The notes under the pieces were generated by a model, which searched no databases, had not been told where the DNA came from, and saw only the letters and a program-made list of their open reading frames with translations. A stretch of DNA of 35,135 nt from Candidatus Gastranaerophilales bacterium (GTDB taxonomy: Bacteria > Cyanobacteriota > Vampirovibrionia > Gastranaerophilales > Gastranaerophilaceae): assembly GCA_944324435.1 (NCBI GenBank), contig CALUWH010000022.1, positions 1-35,135 on the forward strand. The letters are read 5' to 3'. Below are positions 4,298 through 18,376 of the stretch, one piece after another. How positions within the stretch are numbered: position 1 is the first letter of the stretch; the number at the start of each line of letters is the position of its first letter. Position numbers and translations under genes: made by a program.

Positions 4298-5155
4298 ATG
4301 AAAAAAATTTTGTTCGTATTCTTAATTCTGTTTTTGTGCAGGCCTTCGGAAGCATCGATGGTTATAATTGACTATCAGGGGGATACCGTTGTAAGGCAGC
4401 AGAGTATTGAGCGCAATTTGCTTATTAACAGTGATGACGGAGGAGTGTACGATATAGCAGTCAGGCCTCTTGAGGACTGTATGCGAAGTGCTGACGGCAA
4501 AGTTGAGATTCCGCTTGACAAGGTTTATATCAACAATACAAAAGAAGATGTGTTTTTGCGGTACAACGACTATTCCAACCTGTTTTACAGTATAACCATG
4601 GGCGGTGTACCTAAGAATATGACTGCAAAGGTTCGGGATTTTGGAATGGTTCCTGCAGGTATTTACAGCTTAAATTTAGAAGTTCAGGCAACTGACGTTG
4701 AAAGCGGCACAATTGCTTCGATGACAACATTTAATCTGCAGTTTATAGTACCTGCTTCGCAGGAAATAAGCCTTCACGGAGAAATTCCAAAGATAGTCGT
4801 AAGTGCGTCAGATGCATTTGACAAGTCCAAAAAAGTTTCTAATGAAACCTCGCCAATGATTTATATAAATTCCAATTGTGACTGGGAATTGTGCGTAAAT
4901 GCGGACAATTTTGGCGAGGGAGCAGGAAATTACTATGTAAGAACTATAACCGCTTCCGCAAATGTTTCGGAACGGCTTCAGGAAAGAGTTTTGCTGGAAC
5001 CGGGGAAGGAAATAATCCTTGCAAGGGGCAAAGCACCTGCAAATAATGAGTTTGTATCTGTGGAATATTCTCTTGAAAACAGAGACAAAGGATTTCTTCC
5101 GGCAGGCAATTACGATAATCGGGTAAGGTACATATTGAGAGAAGAAGGAAGGTAG
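4298..5155 (+). CDS. Secreted two-domain beta-rich protein, likely fimbrial subunit or tip adhesin
   Basis: A 285-aa protein with a clear signal peptide (MKKILFVFLILFLCRPSEA). The mature part is strand-rich and splits into two halves, each ending in the motif typical of fimbrial and spore-coat-U-like subunits: PAGIYSLNLEV near residues 124-134 and PAGNYDNRVRYIL at the C-terminus. No membrane segment follows the signal. It opens the chaperone-usher-like locus, 61 bp before the chaperone gene. A two-domain subunit that is not the major pilin is the usual form of a tip adhesin, so I infer that role. The ligand cannot be guessed. There is no strong ribosome site, and the leader is only about 5-10 nt. 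Sequence similarity to described adhesins is not evident by eye. Confidence 0.55.
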   Translation: MKKILFVFLILFLCRPSEASMVIIDYQGDTVVRQQSIERNLLINSDDGGVYDIAVRPLEDCMRSADGKVEIPLDKVYINNTKEDVFLRYNDYSNLFYSITMGGVPKNMTAKVRDFGMVPAGIYSLNLEVQATDVESGTIASMTTFNLQFIVPASQEISLHGEIPKIVVSASDAFDKSKKVSNETSPMIYINSNCDWELCVNADNFGEGAGNYYVRTITASANVSERLQERVLLEPGKEIILARGKAPANNEFVSVEYSLENRDKGFLPAGNYDNRVRYILREEGR

Positions 5156-5160
5156 TTTGA

Positions 5161-5194
5161 TGAGATTGTAAGAGAGATGTCACAAGCAATCTCA
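5161..5194 (+). other. Intercistronic hairpin before the chaperone gene
   Basis: TGAGATTG at 5161-5168 pairs with CAATCTCA at 5187-5194 (8 bp, 18-nt loop). No T run follows, so it is not an intrinsic terminator. It could stabilise or process the mRNA and set chaperone dosage relative to the upstream gene. Confidence 0.4.
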
Positions 5195-5216
5195 ACCAAG
5201 TGAGAACGAGGAATAG

Positions 5217-6056
5217 ATGAATTTAGAGAAAATTAAAACAAAAATACTGGGAACTATAATCGCGCTGGGTATTGCGGTACCTGCGTTTGCGTCAGTTGCG
5301 GTTTCACCTACGAGAATCGAGATTAACGCAAACAAAATCAAAACGAATTACATAACGACAGCAATCGAGGTCAAAGGGGATTCTAAGGAGCCGATGAGGT
5401 TTAAGGCTTATCCGGGATTTTTTACTATTGATGAGAAGGGCGAGGTTGTGATGAAAGATAAAGCCTCGGATCCGCATGACTTGTCGAATAAAATTCGTTT
5501 TGTTCCGTCCGAGTTTACTGTGGCGCAGGGAAAATCCCAAAAACTCAGGATTAATATCGCAGGTATAAATCAGCTTCCTGACGGGGAAAACAGAACAATG
5601 CTTTATATAGAAGATGTTAACCCGAAAGAGATGAACATTCCAACCGGGCAAAAAGGAATCGGCGCGCAATTAATCGTTAAAACGAGAATAGGTGTCCCGA
5701 TTTATATAGACAAAGGCAAAGTCAACAAAATTGCTGATATAGAGTATTTGAATATAGTAAAGGAAAAAGACGGACTCTACACAGATATGAAAGTCGTATC
5801 TCAAGGCAACAGTAAAGTCAGATATACGGGCCGTGCACAGATTATTCAGGATAAAAAGCTTATTGATGAGTATGAGCTCAAAGGTAAGGTTGTCGGGGAT
5901 AACAATTATCATATTGCCAAACAAAAAATAGTAACGGACAAGATTGAAAGTCCCGGAGAGTACACGCTCAGAGTGGTTCTTTTCTATCTTGACGAGAACG
6001 GAAAAAAGAAAAATATCAAAAAAGAAGCAAATTTACATATAACAGGTAACGTGTAA
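5217..6056 (+). CDS. PapD-like periplasmic fimbrial chaperone
   Basis: A 279-aa protein with a signal peptide (residues 1-25, cut after PAFA) and two immunoglobulin-like domains. The first begins SVAVSPTRIEI and carries the landmark run of pilus chaperones: a proline segment (RFVPSEFTV), the G-x-x-QKLRI strand that donates to pilins, and LPDGENRTMLYIEDV, matching the usual dREs-x-f/l-x-i. The second domain runs from about residue 155 to the end. Such chaperones fold subunits in the periplasm and deliver them to the usher. It lies between the putative adhesin and the pilin-like genes, with ribosome site GAGGAA before ATG. The divergent sequence suggests the archaic/alternative branch. Family confidence is moderate to high from pattern and context together. 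Confidence 0.7.
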   Translation: MNLEKIKTKILGTIIALGIAVPAFASVAVSPTRIEINANKIKTNYITTAIEVKGDSKEPMRFKAYPGFFTIDEKGEVVMKDKASDPHDLSNKIRFVPSEFTVAQGKSQKLRINIAGINQLPDGENRTMLYIEDVNPKEMNIPTGQKGIGAQLIVKTRIGVPIYIDKGKVNKIADIEYLNIVKEKDGLYTDMKVVSQGNSKVRYTGRAQIIQDKKLIDEYELKGKVVGDNNYHIAKQKIVTDKIESPGEYTLRVVLFYLDENGKKKNIKKEANLHITGNV

Positions 6057-6086
6057 AAAGAAAAAAAAGAAAGGAAGGTTTACCCT

Positions 6087-6740
6087 ATGAAAAAATCAAA
6101 AATCACAAAACTGCTTCCTGTAGCAATGGCACTAATGCTTTTTTGCCCGGCGTTTGCAGCCACAAATAAAGCAAGTTCCGATCAGGTAATTACTGTGCCG
6201 AAATTCATTAATATCACACATGATGAATCATCAGTGGAAGAAACATCGGCAACATTTAATGATGAGTATACAACTATTACCCTTGATGCAGCAATGAATA
6301 CAAAGTTTAAGGTTATAACTAACAATCCGGATGAAGTAATAAAACTCACGGCTACAGCTTTAGCCGACGGAGGTCAGGTTAATGCAATATACGGTGATGA
6401 CACAGATAACTTGAGACTCGTATTTACAAATAACGGTTCAGATGCAAGAGCAGCCACACAATCAGCTGTAACGAATATTACAGGCGGTACTGCTGCTCCG
6501 GCTCAAAATGCCAATGCAATAGCGTTTACTTTAACACCTACTATCACACCAGATGATAATTCAGGCGCACAAGAAGCAACTCCTACAAAAGAAGCCGACG
6601 GAGTTAAGTATGAGCTCAGCAATGGTATTTATGAATTTAATTACACACTTGCTCAAACCGCTGTAGCAAACACATTCTCAACTCATGATACAGACGGTAC
6701 ATACAAAGCAACACTTACTATGTCACAAGTTAGCCCATAG
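6087..6740 (+). CDS. Pilin-like secreted subunit 1
   Basis: A 217-aa protein with signal peptide MKKSKITKLLPVAMALMLFCPAFA. The mature part is rich in T, N, A and D, lacks Cys, and is predicted all-beta. It ends GTYKATLTMSQVSP, very like the closing strand of fimbrial subunits (aGxYxxxxT). The end and the midpoint motif (ALADGGQVNAIYG against KILTDGGEVSAYG) match the next gene, so the two are diverged paralogues. The ribosome site GGAAGG is strong, consistent with a major subunit. I infer it is a structural fimbrial subunit handled by the upstream chaperone. Confidence 0.6.
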   Translation: MKKSKITKLLPVAMALMLFCPAFAATNKASSDQVITVPKFINITHDESSVEETSATFNDEYTTITLDAAMNTKFKVITNNPDEVIKLTATALADGGQVNAIYGDDTDNLRLVFTNNGSDARAATQSAVTNITGGTAAPAQNANAIAFTLTPTITPDDNSGAQEATPTKEADGVKYELSNGIYEFNYTLAQTAVANTFSTHDTDGTYKATLTMSQVSP

Positions 6741-6750
6741 TTAGGAAACA

Positions 6751-7368
6751 ATGAATAAAACAAAATCATTAAAATTATTAATATCAATAATGTCCGTACT
6801 TTTATGTACGGTAAAAGCTTATGGTTACGCAGAAGCTGAACAGTCAATATCAACGACTGTTCAGCCTTCCGTTGCCATAGAAAAACAAACAACATCAATT
6901 GAAGCTGCAACTGCAGACGCTCAAACCGGAACTCATACAGGTCTGCAGTCAGTTTTCAGTATTCAGACAAATGGGAATGACGAAGATTATGACTTTATTG
7001 TTACATCAAAAATATTAACAGACGGAGGGGAGGTATCTGCATATGGAAACAATGGTAGTATTCTCTTTGGCAACACATTCACAACACCAACCGCGGAAGC
7101 AATTGAAAATGCCAAAGCCGGAGGGAATCAGAACAAAAATGTTATTGCATATCCGGTAACCGCAGTAATAACAGAACCGATGACGGTCGGTTTTGAACAA
7201 AACTACGGCTTATACGGAGACTGCTATGTTGTTAAGGTTAACGGGGGCGGAGAAGGAACTCTTACGCATACCGTTGGTCAAACACCTGTTTCAGGGACTT
7301 ACAATATCGGTCAAGACCCAGCAGGAACTTATCAAACCGTAGTAACTTTTTCTGCGGTTAGTAAGTAG
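6751..7368 (+). CDS. Pilin-like secreted subunit 2 (paralogue of the preceding gene)
   Basis: A 205-aa protein with signal peptide MNKTKSLKLLISIMSVLLCTVKAYG. The mature part is beta-rich and Cys-poor and ends AGTYQTVVTFSAVSK, paralleling the preceding gene's GTYKATLTMSQVSP. The shared internal LTDGGEVSAYG / LADGGQVNAIYG block supports duplication. It starts 10 nt after the previous stop with AGGAAA as ribosome site, so both belong to one transcript. Likely a minor or alternative fimbrial subunit; function is inferred from locus and fold only. Confidence 0.58.
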   Translation: MNKTKSLKLLISIMSVLLCTVKAYGYAEAEQSISTTVQPSVAIEKQTTSIEAATADAQTGTHTGLQSVFSIQTNGNDEDYDFIVTSKILTDGGEVSAYGNNGSILFGNTFTTPTAEAIENAKAGGNQNKNVIAYPVTAVITEPMTVGFEQNYGLYGDCYVVKVNGGGEGTLTHTVGQTPVSGTYNIGQDPAGTYQTVVTFSAVSK

Positions 7369-7603
7369 AGTTTGATAATCAAACAATTTTATTGATAGGG
7401 TAAAACGGATTGCTGCGGCTTTGATTAGTCTTGAAATAACAGCCGCTTACAATCACAAAATATAAAAACGTTAAATAGAAACAAAACTCCGCTTTCAAGG
7501 TTGCGGAAAAATAAAAGGGTCGGACAAGGGATGTCCGTTAGTGGAACAAAAGCTGTGCCCGGGGGTAAATAAGGCATAAGCTTAAAATATTTAAAAATCT
7601 TGA
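7369..7603 (+). promoter_or_regulatory. Structured 235-nt spacer ahead of the usher gene
   Basis: No ORF is supported here. Three hairpins can be drawn on the + strand: GCGGCT 7415-7420 with AGCCGC 7441-7446; TCCGC 7488-7492 with GCGGA 7503-7507; CGGACA 7521-7526 with TGTCCG 7532-7537. GC-rich, purine-rich segments around 7515-7570 stand out from the AT-rich surroundings. No T tract follows, so they are not terminators. It could be a riboswitch-like leader or processing region lowering usher expression relative to pilins. I compared it mentally with cyclic di-GMP and ZTP riboswitch cores and saw no match. Confidence 0.45.
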
Positions 7604-7618
7604 ATGTTAAATAGAATC
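7604..7618 (+). repeat. 15-bp inverted repeat, left copy (usher start codon)
   Basis: ATGTTAAATAGAATC begins exactly at the usher ATG. Its perfect reverse complement lies at 10641-10655, and a near copy (13 of 15) in the same orientation lies at 7468-7482. Confidence 0.6.
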
Positions 7619-10600
7619 AAATACAATTTAATAATGCTTATAACCGGCATGTGTTTACTAGGCTTACCGGTACTTGCTGATGAGTCAACAGTTTCATACA
7701 TTACAATAAATAATCTTGCCTATGAAGATGTTGAGATAGTGGTAACCGATAAGGCGGAAATTCTCGTGCCGTTCAAACAGCTTGCCGATATTTTTAACAT
7801 TCAATATTCTGCCAACCGTGTCGATAAAATGATTAGCTTTAAAACCCACGACGGCAAAGAAGGTATGGTTAATACAAACGGCGTATTTGTTCAGGATTAT
7901 CCAGTGTCAAAACGCCCTACAGTTTTTGTAAGTCAGGGAATTATGGACGGCGTATTCAATGAAGCCTATATTACAGCAGAAGCCGCCTCAAAGATTATGG
8001 GTATTAAACTCGATACCGATTTTGAAAATTTGACCCTCACCGCGGAAGTTCAGCGCGATATTCCGCTTCTTCATAATTTAAACAACGTTGTTGAGGCCGA
8101 AAATAAGGGGCCCAAAGCTTATCAGGACGTAGTAGTCCCTAAAAGAACAGGCAAAATTACTCTCAACAAAATCGGACTTCGCACAAACCTCCTGAGTGAT
8201 AACATGTCAATAAGAGGAAATAATTATCATACAATTAACGACACATTCTCAGGCAGTACACAGGGAAGTATCAGTGGTAATATCTTTGGCGGAAAATATA
8301 GGGTAGAAGCTAACGAATACCACTACCGCTCTGACGCATTTATGTTCGGAGGACTCACCGCAACTTATCAAAATAAATTTAAGGATAAATATTACTATGA
8401 ATTGGGAAAAGTAAAAGGCAGAACCGATGTGGATGCCTCTATCGGTACAAATATTTTCGGTGCTCAAATCTGGAATTACAACTACGATAAAGAACGCCCG
8501 AGCGAAATCAAAGGTTATGTAAAGCCGACCAGCCTTGTAAGACTTACCGTTAATGATCTTGAACCCATACTATTGAGCACTTATGCAGGATACTACACCC
8601 TTAAAGATGTTCAGCTCCCGAATCCTGTTAAAAGTATTAAGCTGGAAGAGGTTAACGAAGACGGCTCCGTAGAACTTATCAAAGAAGAAAGATATTCAAT
8701 CTACGGAGATAAACCTTTTGAAAAAGAACAAAGAGCCTCCGCTTTTGCAGGTGTCTGGGGGTACCAGAACAGATTTTTCCGCGAGGGGTCAAATATTTAC
8801 CGCGGAAACAATAAAAAAGTTACTGCCGGAATTGACTATCAATACGGAGTAAAAGATAATATTACCTTTGAATCACGGCTTACCGGAGACAAAATATATG
8901 ACAAGAACGGCTCCAGCGTTATATATCGCGTCCCTACAAATGATGCCCTCCTCGTAAGCGGCACGCAAAAAAGCGTTAACTACCTTGAAGGCGCAACTTC
9001 TCTCAACAGCCTTGAATGGGTTAAGCCTGACAACAAAAATATCAAAGCACGGCTAACCGCCGGCGCTAGTGTTGCACACGACGTAAGAGAAGAACATACC
9101 CACGCAGGATACATTGTTAAGGCTGCAGGCGAATACGAAAAAGATTTGGAGAAATATAAAAAAGGTATTTTCAAACCTAAAAAACTGAACGGGAAAATTG
9201 AATTATTCCAAACCTCTCCTGATTTCTATATAGCAAGTTCAGATACCACTTCCAAAAACGACCGCACGGGAGGAAAAGTCTCCGGCGGCATAAGCTTTAA
9301 TTCTACAAGTGCAAGCGGAAGCTACAGCAGATATTATTCAAACATGAACCACCGCTACAGAGGCGGAACAATTAAGTTTGATGAAGCAAGTATCAATGCC
9401 TCCACTAAGATTCCTAAAATAGCAATGCTTAGATTTAATAGTTACTACAGACGGGGGGAAAATGAACTCGGACGGAATAAAAATTACTTCTATGATGCAA
9501 ACGCCTCAAGAGATATAAAACGCTGGGCACGAATTCAGGCAGGACGCAGAGAAAGCCTGTATGATACGGAGTACGAAAATCCTGGAGCTCTTGACAGGAA
9601 TTATTACTCTAAATATGCAGATAATTACGCCCAACTGGATGTCCCGATACCCGGTAATCACGGGAAATTTACACTTGGACATAATGTTATAAGGTACAAT
9701 ACCGCGACTTATAAAAACGGTTACAACATGTTCCGCTTCGGCTATACATTCCCGACCTGGAAAAGACTTACCCTCGGTCTTGGTTACGGTTTCCGATACT
9801 ACGGGCAGGGCGGTAATGATTTTAATGTTAACCTCTCATACCGAGCTAAATCAGGCCAAACAATGACCGTAGGATACCAATATTCCGAAAACGGCGGATA
9901 TTTTATTGATAACATGTTTACTCCTATGACAAACAGACATTCAATAAATTTTATGTTTAACGACGCATTCCAAATCTTTAACCACGGTCTTAAATCCGTC
10001 GGAGATGAGGATTTGGATAAAGGTATATTTGAGGCGGTTGCTTTTGTCGATAATAATAAAAATGGCAAATATGACAAAAAGATTGATATTCCGATAAAGA
10101 ACGTTCCGCTGATTACAAGCTGGTCAGGAGAAACCTGTATAACGAATAAGCGCGGCAAAGTCTACTCTTCCAGCTTAACAGAAGGAATTTATACCGTATC
10201 AATCGATATGAATTCTCTTCCTATCACGGTAGCGCCTCTAACCAATGATTTAATTCAGAAAAAGGTTAAAATTGACGGAGGCGCGACAACCCTGCTGGAG
10301 ATTCCGCTTGTAAGTACGGTAGGTTCTGTTTCAGGTGTCCTTAGAATCACAGACGACTTTGAACGCAACCTCAAAATAACGGACTTTGTCGTGGTACTGC
10401 TTGATGAAAACGGCGAAGAAGTAAACTATTCAACCGTTGGTGTATCGGGAGAATTCTATATTTCGGGACTTGCACCGGGGAAATATACGTTAAAGCTGGA
10501 TGATAACTTTATTAATTCATACGGACTTGAAGAACTTCCGGAAAAGAGTGAAATAAGTATAGTTATTCCTTTCGATTATGAAAACCCGACCGATTTGGTC

Positions 10601-10636
10601 GAACAAAACTTAGAGTACAAGACATTGTCTCTATAA
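7604..10636 (+). CDS. Usher-like outer-membrane beta-barrel protein
   Basis: A 1010-aa protein with signal peptide (about residues 1-25). Residues 28-155 form a small strand/helix N-domain (ILVPFKQLADIF, AYITAEAASKIMG) comparable to an usher N-terminal domain or a stalk-like domain. From about 180 to 800 it is a strand-rich barrel full of aromatic girdle residues. Residues about 298-390 fit the plug of fimbrial ushers: GYVKPTSLVRLTVND, a YTLKDVQLP turn, then VNEDGSVEL and a Y-S-I segment. The C-terminal region holds VFVDNNKNGKYD-like residues near 812-826 (SdrD-B/Ca-binding style) and two Ig-like domains ending GLAPGKYTLKL. Ushers translocate and polymerise chaperone-subunit complexes. Context with chaperone and pilins supports this; sequence is remote, so identity as a true FimD/CsuD homologue is inferred. 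No clear ribosome site precedes the ATG. Confidence 0.65.
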   Translation: MLNRIKYNLIMLITGMCLLGLPVLADESTVSYITINNLAYEDVEIVVTDKAEILVPFKQLADIFNIQYSANRVDKMISFKTHDGKEGMVNTNGVFVQDYPVSKRPTVFVSQGIMDGVFNEAYITAEAASKIMGIKLDTDFENLTLTAEVQRDIPLLHNLNNVVEAENKGPKAYQDVVVPKRTGKITLNKIGLRTNLLSDNMSIRGNNYHTINDTFSGSTQGSISGNIFGGKYRVEANEYHYRSDAFMFGGLTATYQNKFKDKYYYELGKVKGRTDVDASIGTNIFGAQIWNYNYDKERPSEIKGYVKPTSLVRLTVNDLEPILLSTYAGYYTLKDVQLPNPVKSIKLEEVNEDGSVELIKEERYSIYGDKPFEKEQRASAFAGVWGYQNRFFREGSNIYRGNNKKVTAGIDYQYGVKDNITFESRLTGDKIYDKNGSSVIYRVPTNDALLVSGTQKSVNYLEGATSLNSLEWVKPDNKNIKARLTAGASVAHDVREEHTHAGYIVKAAGEYEKDLEKYKKGIFKPKKLNGKIELFQTSPDFYIASSDTTSKNDRTGGKVSGGISFNSTSASGSYSRYYSNMNHRYRGGTIKFDEASINASTKIPKIAMLRFNSYYRRGENELGRNKNYFYDANASRDIKRWARIQAGRRESLYDTEYENPGALDRNYYSKYADNYAQLDVPIPGNHGKFTLGHNVIRYNTATYKNGYNMFRFGYTFPTWKRLTLGLGYGFRYYGQGGNDFNVNLSYRAKSGQTMTVGYQYSENGGYFIDNMFTPMTNRHSINFMFNDAFQIFNHGLKSVGDEDLDKGIFEAVAFVDNNKNGKYDKKIDIPIKNVPLITSWSGETCITNKRGKVYSSSLTEGIYTVSIDMNSLPITVAPLTNDLIQKKVKIDGGATTLLEIPLVSTVGSVSGVLRITDDFERNLKITDFVVVLLDENGEEVNYSTVGVSGEFYISGLAPGKYTLKLDDNFINSYGLEELPEKSEISIVIPFDYENPTDLVEQNLEYKTLSL

Positions 10637-10640
10637 AACA

Positions 10641-10655
10641 GATTCTATTTAACAT
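10641..10655 (-). repeat. 15-bp inverted repeat, right copy (just after usher stop)
   Basis: GATTCTATTTAACAT is the exact reverse complement of 7604-7618. It begins 5 nt after the usher stop codon, so the pair brackets the whole ORF. Confidence 0.6.
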
Positions 10656-10673
10656 AAACACATTAATGTGAAC

Positions 10674-10700
10674 AGCTGCGAAAACCCGCAGCTTTTTTTT
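10674..10700 (+). terminator. Intrinsic terminator of the fimbrial locus
   Basis: AGCTGCG at 10674-10680 pairs with CGCAGCT at 10687-10693 around a 6-nt loop, followed by an 8-T run at 10693-10700. A palindrome CACATTAATGTG (10659-10670) precedes it. Confidence 0.9.
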
Positions 10701-10727: not shown

Positions 10728-11112
10728 GTGGTTTATGGTTTAGAAGAAGTTATAAGGGTTGATAAGTTGAACAGTTGAAGGGTGGTTTTATGGTTTAGGA
10801 GTTGAGAGGTTTAGGAGTTGAGGGGAAGTTATGAGTGTTGATAAGTTGAGTAGTTTAGAATAAGTTAAAATCTATTCACTAATCACTATTCACCATTCAC
10901 TAAAAAATACTCCCTTCACGCCCTTTGAACGTATTCAGCCGTTTTGAGAACACTTCATTCTGCTTATCAAGCTGTTTCTGAAATTCCTCAATTGTCTTTT
11001 GCTGAGTGATGTAGGGCGGATTGACTAATCCGACAATAATAAATTTAGAGTTTTTGTGATAGTAAGTAGATTTTAAATTTCTTCTTCTCAACTCCTCAAC
11101 TTATAAACCATC
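10728..11112. repeat. Repeat-rich, MITE-like spacer without a supported gene
   Basis: The left part has direct repeats: GGTTTAGGAGTTGAG at 10792-10806 and 10808-10822, and GTTATAAGGGTTGATAAGTTGA at 10749 against a 20-of-22 copy at 10828. The right end (11086-11111) carries the inverted version (CTCAACTCCTCAACTTATAAACCA), so the ends form imperfect terminal inverted repeats (TGGTTTAT). Between lie TTCACTA-type words (10873-10901) and a perfect hairpin CGGATT-GACT-AATCCG at 11017-11032. A 63-codon minus-strand frame at 10900-11091 uses a TTG start inside the repeat and is doubtful. The rest of the 613-bp gap (11113-11249) holds only the promoter of the next gene. Confidence 0.5.
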
Positions 11113-11208
11113 TTTATAGTGTTGCGATTGCTTCTTGAATTCCCCCAAAGATGAAGTATTAACTTTTGTAACAATTTATCAACTCAATAAAATTTTTAAA
11201 TTTACAAA

Positions 11209-14858: not shown

Positions 14859-15752
14859 ATGAGCGAAAATATTACAGAGTACAGAAATGAAAACACTAAA
14901 AATATCGACTTGTTATCAACAATAGATATTGTAAGAAAGATTAATGAAGAGGATAAGCTCGTAGCACTGGCAATAGAAGACGAACTTCCTAATATTGCAA
15001 AAGCCATTGATATGATTGCAAAACAATTTTTGATGGGCGGTAGATTATACTACTTTGGAGCCGGAACATCAGGAAGAATAGGAGTGCTTGACGCATCTGA
15101 ATGTCCGCCGACATTTGGAGCGCCTGCAGATATGGTAACAGGTATAATTGCAGGCGGAGATACTGCTCTTAGAAATGCAGTAGAAGGGGCTGAAGATAAT
15201 TTTGATCTAGGAGTAAAGGACGCCTCATGCCTTACTGATATGGATGTTTGCATTGCAATATCAGCAAGCGGAAATCCTAAATATCTTTTGGGAGTTCTAT
15301 CTCAAGCAGAAAAAGCCAACTGCAGAACAATTGCTCTTACCTGTAACCACAATGCGGCTATTCTTGAAGAAGCAGGACTTGGGATTTGCGTAGAAGTCGG
15401 CCCGGAAGTTATTGCAGGTTCAAGCAGAATGAAAGCAGGTACCGTGCAGAAAATGGTACTTAATATGCTTTCAACAGGCGCTATGATAAAAATCGGCAAA
15501 ACTTATGAAAACTTTATGATTGACTTAATGCCGACAAATGAAAAACTAAAAGATAGAGCCATCCGAATTGTTGCTGAGATTGCAGAGGTTAATCATGCAA
15601 CAGCCCTGCAGACGCTTTTAGATTGCGGCTGGGAGGTTAAAACAGCTATTCTTATGCTCAAATGCAAGCTTAATAAAGAGCAGGCTGAAACTGTTTTAAA
15701 GAAAAACTGCGGTGTATTAAGAAGAGCTTTGAACAGTCTTACGAAAATTTAA
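14859..15752 (+). CDS. murQ: N-acetylmuramic acid 6-phosphate etherase
   Basis: 297 aa from ATG 14859, which has AAGGAG 7 nt upstream (an in-frame GTG 6 nt earlier is less likely). The cytosolic SIS-fold enzyme cleaves the D-lactyl ether of MurNAc-6-P to give GlcNAc-6-P, so that cell-wall sugars can be reused. Landmarks: FGAGTSGRIGVLDASECPPTFG near 64-85, AGGDTALRNAVEGAEDN with the catalytic-region Glu, ISASGNPKYLLG, and GSSRMKAGTVQKMVLNMLST. Its stop overlaps by 3 nt the stop of the convergent lysozyme-amidase gene. A peptidoglycan hydrolase and a MurNAc recycler side by side form a plausible functional pair, though they are on separate transcripts. Confidence 0.95.
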   Translation: MSENITEYRNENTKNIDLLSTIDIVRKINEEDKLVALAIEDELPNIAKAIDMIAKQFLMGGRLYYFGAGTSGRIGVLDASECPPTFGAPADMVTGIIAGGDTALRNAVEGAEDNFDLGVKDASCLTDMDVCIAISASGNPKYLLGVLSQAEKANCRTIALTCNHNAAILEEAGLGICVEVGPEVIAGSSRMKAGTVQKMVLNMLSTGAMIKIGKTYENFMIDLMPTNEKLKDRAIRIVAEIAEVNHATALQTLLDCGWEVKTAILMLKCKLNKEQAETVLKKNCGVLRRALNSLTKI

Positions 15753-18346
15753 CTAAAATAATCAATAACAGATTTAGTCATTATATCTGCATAATTTTCC
15801 ATAGTTTCAGGATTATTCATCCGCTCTCTGCCTTTGGGTGAACACATAAACGCTACTTCCCAAAGTACGGATGGGATATTCATGTTATTTTCGGCTTTTC
15901 TCATTACTAAATAATTAGCCTTGAGGTTTTGTGCGCATTCTTGGTCACTATCAGCTTTAAAGTTGTTCACCATTATCTCTGCAAGCTTTTTACTGTTATT
16001 CTTTTTGCCTGTAAAGTAAATTTGTGTTCTGTCTTTTGGCGGCTCACCATTTACCCAGTTTTTCTTATCCTGATTATTTACATGCACAGAGATAAACATA
16101 TCAGCTTTGTTATTCTTGTATCCGAGTTCTTTTGCAATAAGGTTAACGTGGCCTTGCAGAAAAATAACTTTGGCACCTTGAGCACAGAGGCGGTCTTTGA
16201 GCCTGATGGCATTATCATAATTTATTAACCACTCATCTTCAAGCCCTTTTTGGCCTTCTGTTCCGACATCTGTTCCTGCTTGTGAATAGCCATGACCTGC
16301 GTTTACTATAATTGTCTTGCCATTAAGCTTTCCTGATGCAGTGGGGGTAAATACAGCCCTAGTTGCAGCCACCATACCGTTAATTTTATGCTTTTGTCTT
16401 AACAATTCTCTGTTTTGAAGATTTGCAGTTCCACGCATATCTACAATCTCTGTTGTAACTTTATTTTCATCATCATAAATAACTTTTTTCTTATCTGCAG
16501 AAATAGCATAATCCGAGTCATTATACACCACCTTTATTCTTTGACCGGGTTCGATTAAGTCCGATTCCAGTCCGTTTATGTTCTTTAAATCTTCAAGCTT
16601 TACACCGACTTGTTTTGAGATTTTATAAAGTGTATCTTTAGGCTGGACTGTATAAATGTAGCCGGGGATTTCGATAATATCTCCTGCATTAATTTTGTCA
16701 ACATCTTCAATATTGTTTAAGTCCTTTAAAATTTCTACAGTAAGCCCAAATTTCTTTGCAATCCTGAATAGATTGTCTCCCGGCTCAATCTTATATCCAA
16801 GTTTTTGAATTTTAAGCTTTTGTCCCAGCTGAATTTTATTCTTGTCTTGAATATTATTATTTTTACAAATTATATCCTCTGTTGTACCGAAAGTACGAGC
16901 AAGCCTCCAGATACCGTCCCCTTTTTGGACTTCGTGTTCGTACGTTATCACCTGAAACATTCCTTCCTGCTCAATTTTTGTTTTAGGGCTGGATAACAGA
17001 CCTTTAAACTCGGACAAATCCTCTGATTCTACCTCTGCAATTTCATCTTCCTTAGGGCCGCTGCAGCTTCTAAAAAGATTAAATATAAAATTACCGATAG
17101 CCGCAAAACCGGCTTTTATTCCATCCCATACTCTTGACCAGAAGCCTTTCTTTTGAGGTTTTGTTTCATTGTTTTCAGTCTTAGGTACTTGAATTGTATC
17201 TGCAGGTTGTACAGATATTGTATCACTAGTAACTATCGGTGCTACAGAAGAAGTTTTCTCTATAGTAGAAGATTTAATATTCTTTAAGAACGGTACATTC
17301 AAGCTGCTTCCGATAGAAATTGACTCCGGATTCCGATTAACTCGTTTAAATTCTTTATAAAACTCTTTAAACGTAACATCATAAGTATTATCAAGTGAAT
17401 CATATATTTTTTTTGCAACAGCAAAAACTCCCTTACCTTTAAAAGAATCATCTACTGTAAATTTCCAAGAGCCGGCACTTTTTGGCTCAGAGGAGATTTC
17501 ACCTTTTGTAAATTGTTCATATATTTTATCAAGCTCTGTTGTATCTTTCTTATTCTTTTTATGGCACTCAACTGCTTTGTTATAGCAGGATTTAATAGCT
17601 TCTTTTGCCTCATCCAATTCTTTACCTGTTAAGTCTCTTGATGCCAGAATCATTCTATTTAAACTTCTTCGGTACAAACCAGGATCTTCAACCTTGTCAG
17701 CGTCAGACTTGCCTGAATATACATAGGCTAAATTCGCAATAACAGTAGAATAATCCTTGTTTTTTATGGCATTCATCAATACTTTATTTTTGCTAATTTT
17801 ACTTAAACCCTTGTTATAATTAAGATCAATTAATCCCTCTTTGATTGAGGATGGTAAGTTTTCATAAGTATTTTTGCCAATCCTTCTGTTCAGAAGATTC
17901 TTTACTTCTTTAGAATAATTTTGGAGTTTTTTGCAGAAATTTGAATAAGCAGTTTCCTGTGTTCTTTTATTTTTAGTAAGTTCGCCAAAACCATTGGTGT
18001 AAGTGCCGAATTTATCTTTATACGGCACTGTAATAGCTTCATAGTAGTAATACGGGTCGCCCTCGTAATATTTCATCAAATCTATAAGATGGCTCTGTGC
18101 CTTTTTAATAGCAGTATTGTCATCTTTAAGAAGCGACGGAGAGTATGATTTTATACCCATTTCATCAGCAGTACAGCGCAGGGTATCGATAATATCCTCC
18201 GTAAGAAGCTGCTTTTTCACAATGCTGTCTGCAGGAGCTTCAAGAGTATATTCAAAAGTTTTTATGCTGTCAGGTTTTGTTGTTGCAGCTGTTGAAAAGT
18301 TTGTAGTATCTTTTATCTCATATATATTATGAACAGAAATACTCAT
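15749..18346 (-). CDS. Bifunctional GH24 lysozyme - LysM - amidase_3 peptidoglycan hydrolase
   Basis: 865 aa from ATG 18346; an in-frame ATG at 18364 lies inside the shared promoter block and is less likely. Domains, numbered from 18346: GH24 lysozyme about 82-238, with E95 (YYEGD), D111 and T117 (DKFGTYTNGFG) matching the E-D-T triad, then NYNKG and GLYRRSLNR; a possible LysM-like segment about 295-355; a linker with a hydrophobic patch (about 400-430); three LysM about 469-608; amidase_3 about 676-864 with zinc/catalytic H685, E703, H755 and E830. It should cut both glycan strands and the MurNAc-L-Ala bond. There is no signal peptide, so export is unexplained. The GH24 domain has a longer E-to-D spacing than usual. 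Confidence 0.88.
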   Translation of the reverse strand: MSISVHNIYEIKDTTNFSTAATTKPDSIKTFEYTLEAPADSIVKKQLLTEDIIDTLRCTADEMGIKSYSPSLLKDDNTAIKKAQSHLIDLMKYYEGDPYYYYEAITVPYKDKFGTYTNGFGELTKNKRTQETAYSNFCKKLQNYSKEVKNLLNRRIGKNTYENLPSSIKEGLIDLNYNKGLSKISKNKVLMNAIKNKDYSTVIANLAYVYSGKSDADKVEDPGLYRRSLNRMILASRDLTGKELDEAKEAIKSCYNKAVECHKKNKKDTTELDKIYEQFTKGEISSEPKSAGSWKFTVDDSFKGKGVFAVAKKIYDSLDNTYDVTFKEFYKEFKRVNRNPESISIGSSLNVPFLKNIKSSTIEKTSSVAPIVTSDTISVQPADTIQVPKTENNETKPQKKGFWSRVWDGIKAGFAAIGNFIFNLFRSCSGPKEDEIAEVESEDLSEFKGLLSSPKTKIEQEGMFQVITYEHEVQKGDGIWRLARTFGTTEDIICKNNNIQDKNKIQLGQKLKIQKLGYKIEPGDNLFRIAKKFGLTVEILKDLNNIEDVDKINAGDIIEIPGYIYTVQPKDTLYKISKQVGVKLEDLKNINGLESDLIEPGQRIKVVYNDSDYAISADKKKVIYDDENKVTTEIVDMRGTANLQNRELLRQKHKINGMVAATRAVFTPTASGKLNGKTIIVNAGHGYSQAGTDVGTEGQKGLEDEWLINYDNAIRLKDRLCAQGAKVIFLQGHVNLIAKELGYKNNKADMFISVHVNNQDKKNWVNGEPPKDRTQIYFTGKKNNSKKLAEIMVNNFKADSDQECAQNLKANYLVMRKAENNMNIPSVLWEVAFMCSPKGRERMNNPETMENYADIMTKSVIDYFS

Positions 18347-18358
18347 TCTTTTTATATC

Positions 18359-18376
18359 CCTCATTTATATAAAGTA
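18359..18376 (-). promoter_or_regulatory. Shared promoter block, copy 2 (before the lysozyme-amidase)
   Basis: Reading on the minus strand, TACTTTATATAAATGAGG. It differs by one base from the copy at 24798-24815. The terminal GAGG may also serve as ribosome site. Confidence 0.6.

Follow-up and report, generated by a model that had tools for sequence, protein, structure and literature searches.

The five consecutive genes at positions 4298–10636 of a Candidatus Gastranaerophilales contig (CALUWH010000022.1; hereafter the window, 35,135 nucleotides analysed at its full length) are read here, with a probability of about 85%, as a single operon for a chaperone-usher pilus, related to the archaic (sigma) branch but deeply diverged from it, with usher synthesis probably limited post-transcriptionally. 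The locus itself is a real, conserved and strongly diverged chaperone-usher locus, for which pilus assembly would be the expected function. It lies in a genome of 1.95 Mb in 50 contigs, 98.9% complete. All five open reading frames (ORFs) are intact and on the + strand (4298–5155, 5217–6056, 6087–6740, 6751–7368 and 7604–10636), separated by about 61, 30, 10 and 235 bases, as a preliminary description of this DNA had placed them. In this order, they encode a secreted protein of 285 amino acids with two pilin-like domains, a PapD-like periplasmic chaperone (279 amino acids), two pilin-like subunits (s1 and s2, 217 and 205 amino acids) and an usher of 1010 amino acids.

The gene set recurs across the order Gastranaerophilales. 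Records with usher homologues of 64–96% identity are mostly assigned to Candidatus Gastranaerophilales, Melainabacteria or an uncultured cyanobacterium, and 28 of the 57 genomes in the search for relatives carry an usher homologue. The neighbourhood comparison that the preliminary description had proposed as a check found the first gene followed by the chaperone, both subunits and the usher again in most loci with sufficient flanking sequence. Among the distant loci, L051, L052 and L053 possess the same parts but with one subunit gene placed before the chaperone, and in the most distant, L054–L056, the set is recognizable only in part. This conservation in many genomes, together with profile matches that beat their controls, excludes chance as the source of the locus. 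Standard annotation recognizes little of it: in Pfam, the second protein matches PapD_N below the cut-off (E 0.006), the C-terminus of the fifth matches SdrD_B/CarboxypepD_reg and nothing else is found, while NCBIfam has no convincing model for any of the five proteins. PDB sequences yielded no relevant match, whether two single proteins or four alignments served as the query; antibody matches of the subunit profile were dismissed, as they begin at the signal-peptide end of the profile.

The usher (7604–10636, + strand) is predicted to consist of an N-terminal domain, a barrel spanning residues 185–792 with a plug at about 300–370, and two C-terminal domains. Its AlphaFold model (predicted local distance difference test, pLDDT, 79.9; predicted template modelling score, pTM, 0.59) shows a barrel with an interior insert, and DSSP assigns six strands before the plug and about twenty after it. 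The preliminary description had seen an usher-like barrel with a plug-like segment, and had named a TonB receptor or an LPS transporter as what the protein might prove to be instead. In a Foldseek search with the whole model, the first 14 PDB matches are all FimD or PapC (E 7.5e-26 to 6.8e-11), followed by SdrD-type matches to part of the protein, with other barrels such as ZnuD and LptD appearing only from 3e-06; neither of the two alternatives was borne out. At the profile level, hhalign aligns the usher family with PF00577-type cyanobacterial ushers at a probability of 98.5 (E 1.9e-15, 714 columns), and this match includes the plug, which aligns with the archaic plug. The comparison ushers were collected through PF00577, and two of them were re-checked; as a yardstick, the cyanobacterial usher profile finds FimD at a probability of 98.3. 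Column-shuffled and reversed profiles gave E 0.08 or worse. Nothing was found with hhalign when the Gastranaerophilales profiles were compared to single FimD, FimC, EcpB and EcpC sequences, which is expected because there is no profile on the other side.

For the chaperone (5217–6056, + strand), a PapD_N match below the cut-off is also seen in 11 of 23 homologues. Its profile matches that of the archaic cyanobacterial chaperones with a probability of 98.5 (E 1.7e-15, 216 columns), against E 0.1 or worse for column-shuffled and reversed controls. The only invariant residue of the chaperone superfamily is a proline (PMC4654587), and P97, invariant in the 23 sequences, aligns with it. The PapD-like assignment of this gene therefore stands, on the profile match, the aligned proline and the negative controls. 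The suggested affinity to the archaic branch is supported, with both the chaperone and the usher profiles matching archaic cyanobacterial proteins at E values of about 1e-15.

The two subunit genes, s1 (6087–6740) and s2 (6751–7368), both on the + strand, are conserved in position. They had been described as paralogues with similar ends, and they are indeed paralogous (phmmer E 7e-10), with the C-terminal ends GTYKATLTMSQVSP and GTYQTVVTFSAVSK. The N-terminal part of the subunit profile also matches the pilins of multi-pilin loci from another order of the class (E 1.1e-07, 74 columns). Further pilin-like genes were noted. A third one is found at a distance from the operon, immediately upstream of a gene for a BamA-like Omp85 protein, both in the window genome (contig 24; L123 5880–6494 and 6525–8804) and in relatives (for example L044 3504–4094 and 1245–3482); the neighbouring proteins of 746–794 amino acids had been suspected to be adhesins, a candidate rejected as they are Omp85 proteins. 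In one genome, an additional pilin gene, encoded on the same strand as the usher, lies downstream of it (L072 737–1375). Next to the first gene, a divergent pair of genes (L129 13465–13947 and 13952–14680, with similar pairs in L124, L125 and L126) encodes a weakly pilin-like protein of ~160 amino acids and a secreted-looking, family-less protein of ~245 amino acids.

The first gene (4298–5155, + strand), conserved as such, had been described as encoding a two-domain secreted beta protein, and its AlphaFold model (pLDDT 87.1, pTM 0.75) shows two pilin-fold domains. In structural comparisons, domain 1 matches pilins best, at Z 9–10, and the full-length model matches a CfaE-CfaB fusion (Z 8.7) and the archaic tip adhesin CsuE (Z 8.1), although such Z values are modest. 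The protein is read here as a probable tip adhesin. A second chaperone-like or accessory protein is a rival for this gene because its profile also aligns with the chaperone profile (probability 81–90), and PapD-like domains are found among its structural matches. Since the first-gene profile has no match to the archaic chaperones and the best structural matches are to pilins and tip-type proteins, I regard this alternative as possible but doubtful.

Taken as a pathway, the subunits would exit by Sec and be held by the PapD-like chaperone, which would hand them to the usher. They would then polymerise by donor-strand exchange while passing the plugged barrel, with the 285-amino-acid protein at the tip of the pilus. 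The operon possesses only two subunits, and none of the measurements made here indicates the shape of a fibre, which leaves room for the same pathway exporting a different product, namely a non-pilus surface layer or short fibrils. Pili are the product of those archaic systems that have been investigated (PMC4654587, PMC9452303, PMC10104325), and a non-pilus product is thus judged rather unlikely.

The usher gene is framed by three copies of a short element. Copy B (7604–7618, + strand; ATGTTAAATAGAATC) is the usher start codon with codons 2–5, and copy C (10641–10655, - strand), 4 bases past the stop codon, is its reverse complement, the two forming a perfect 15-bp inverted repeat that encloses the usher ORF. 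Copy A (7468–7482, + strand) is a shorter direct copy in the leader between s2 and the usher, with the core GTTAAATAGAA at 7470–7480. This 11-mer occurs three times in the genome, each time at the usher; with the core absent from the rest of the genome, recognition by a genome-wide regulator was considered unlikely. Copy C is followed by a palindrome (CACATTAATGTG, 10659–10670; CACATATGTG-like in relatives) and an intrinsic terminator (10673–10700, + strand). The same arrangement is seen in 19 distinct loci that belong to the usher clade of the window, with the 3′ arm TTCTATTTAACA a few bases past the stop codon, then the palindrome (kept in nearly all loci, degraded in L038), then the terminator. 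Usher codons 2–4 are fixed as TTA-AAT-AGA, whereas invariant Leu, Asn and Arg residues in the rest of the gene hardly ever retain a single codon. The framing element was not found in the other usher clades.

For the first 26 nucleotides of the 3′ untranslated region (UTR), the best duplex target in the usher message is the start codon in 17 of the 19 loci, and copy A in the remaining two. When more of the 3′ UTR is scanned, stretches of the terminator have other, better-scoring targets in the window and in L013. A further set of loci, retrieved as a test of the element, mostly repeats genomes already included and so provides no independent test. Rfam at the gathering score returned nothing for the window, and only a chance-level match for the leader. 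Beyond the terminator, the intergenic region after the usher (10738–11123) contains imperfect direct and inverted repeats of 28–39 nucleotides.

An inverted repeat whose arms are identical in the window and enclose exactly the usher ORF could also be a recombination site, and inversion of the usher segment a DNA-level on/off switch. However, all 80 neighbouring pilin and chaperone genes (49 distinct ushers, from all clades) lie upstream on the same strand as the usher and none on the other, an arrangement with which a rare flipped state remains compatible. Moreover, no recombinase was seen among the window ORFs scanned, and copy C is unchanged where copy B has changed. Inversion is accordingly an improbable explanation for the repeat.

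The leader also contains a hairpin, CGGACA-AGGGA-TGTCCG (7521–7537, + strand), located between copy A and the usher start codon and carrying GGA in its loop. The CsrA consensus is RUACARGGAUGU, with GGA in the loop of a short hairpin (PMC7652899); the CsrA-like site in the window, ACAAGGGAUGU, is one base longer than the consensus core and has a 6-bp stem. CsrA is encoded in the window genome, and in 30 of the 31 genomes searched. Across species the stems vary while GGA stays in the loop, and a GGA hairpin with a stem of at least 5 is present in 12 of 19 leaders, compared to a mean of 0.73 and a maximum of 4 in shuffled sequences, 0 of 19 in a stretch inside the gene and 0 of 13 in other clades. 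These counts are not independent trials, because the loci are related and the rules of the scan were adapted once the first examples had been seen. The leader as a whole is not more stable than its shuffles (z -1.0), and only the local GGA hairpins stand out. Judged by this pattern, the hairpin is likely a CsrA site.

The framing element and the CsrA-type hairpin suggest control of usher synthesis at the RNA level. Copy C in the 3′ UTR, acting as RNA, would pair perfectly with copy B at the start codon and limit synthesis after transcription, with copy A in the leader as a competing pairing partner and the GGA hairpin as the likely CsrA site. Complementarity between a 3′ UTR and the translation start of the message that carries it is known from OppZ and CarZ of Vibrio cholerae, which act as processed small RNAs, and from icaR of Staphylococcus aureus, where the pairing is in cis. 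In contrast to these, the complementarity here covers the start codon itself and a third copy is present in the leader.

Several observations weigh against a chaperone-usher operon with usher synthesis limited in this way. The pTM of the usher model is only 0.59, and the strands assigned by DSSP give no firm count to set against the 24 of an usher barrel. When only the barrel is compared (VIA-align), AlgE and OprD rank as high as FimD, and none of the 32 aligned ushers matches PF00577, the Pfam Usher family, above its curated cut-off; in a sample of 292 genomes from the phylum, PF00577 matches occur in 18, and no genome of the window's family is among these. In the chaperone, R126 is invariant and lies in strand F1, but in the alignment it is two positions off the arginine of the archaic and alternative systems (CsuC Arg89). 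Beyond the core, copies B and C show no covariation, and the compared loci are related to one another. The barrel ranking and the lack of a Pfam Usher match would fit a protein that is some other outer-membrane barrel (a TonB receptor, LptD, a porin or a polysaccharide exporter) beside unrelated beta-sandwich proteins. As AlgE and OprD score like FimD, the barrel by itself is not diagnostic; the plug, the C-terminal domains and the gene context are. The profile match takes in both the plug and the C-terminus, whole-model Foldseek puts ushers about five orders of magnitude or more ahead of all other barrels, and chaperone and subunit genes are conserved alongside, which makes another barrel very improbable.

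Not all related ushers possess the plug, a point that, like the element framing the usher gene, is absent from the preliminary description. Between barrel strands 6 and 7, plugged ushers have 85–90 residues, compared to 18–23 in thirteen distinct related ushers of 902–921 amino acids and 44 in L024 and L025. Outside the plug region, the plugless ushers, of which L129 7613–10366 is one, align over the whole remaining protein. The thirteen form one clade, with a support of 100 in the Shimodaira–Hasegawa-like approximate likelihood ratio test (SH-aLRT), and this clade also contains a second usher of the window genome (contig 45; L057 2724–4286). The contig ends within that usher, ahead of the plug region, and the plug state of this copy is therefore taken from the tree, according to which it would be plugless. 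Complete five-gene sets surround the plugless ushers in L048, L049, L058, L124, L125, L126 and L129, and the two matches listed for genome G044 belong to a single plugless usher in two pieces, the sole homologue found there. In P and type 1 pili, the plug shuts the resting pore and helps in subunit recruitment (PMC3960871); with a plugless barrel, the pore would have to be closed in another way. The literature search found no paper on ushers without a plug, which is weak evidence of novelty. A more far-reaching proposal can be made tentatively, with rather less than even confidence: a three-copy RNA switch would set the usher dose, with the leader decoy and the CsrA hairpin choosing the pairing, and the paralogous clade, probably also in this genome, would export pili through a plugless barrel.

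With the archaic pathway (Csu of Acinetobacter, and the PF00577-positive loci of photosynthetic cyanobacteria), the window locus shares a PapD-like chaperone, a plugged usher with C-terminal domains, pilin-like subunits and a two-domain protein, probably of tip type. It differs in being PF00577-negative, in its conserved five-gene set with the two-domain protein first, and in sequence, with about 16% identity to the archaic cyanobacterial proteins in the aligned profiles. The predicted fold and the plug inside the barrel sequence are also those of the classical FimD and PapC, but identity to these is 11–13%, and the C-terminal domains of the window usher are of SdrD_B/CarboxypepD_reg type. The multi-pilin loci of another order of the class (L112–L116) are similar in encoding an usher-like protein of 888–1006 amino acids, a PapD-like chaperone and pilins of 200 amino acids. 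They have three to five pilins, however, no counterpart of the first gene was recognized in them, and the usher match is confined to the C-terminal half; they apparently represent a second undescribed branch. Elsewhere in the window, positions 15752–18364 encode a protein of 871 amino acids with a phage-lysozyme-like domain, three LysM domains and an amidase_3 domain.

A surface organelle little described in its lineage had been anticipated if the taxonomic guess was right. The lineage is Gastranaerophilales, and the literature search found no paper linking Gastranaerophilales with chaperone and usher, or Melainabacteria with pili and usher. The locus thus likely adds a surface organelle to a gut lineage for which no such description was found, and it illustrates that chaperone-usher systems reach beyond Pfam detection, standard annotation missing this operon. 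What may surprise a specialist is the plugless clade and the element that frames the usher. If the RNA-level control is true, the framed usher gene would encode an unusual assembly platform dosed by its own 3′ UTR. Related genomes, with their plugged and plugless ushers, offer natural variants for testing what the plug does.

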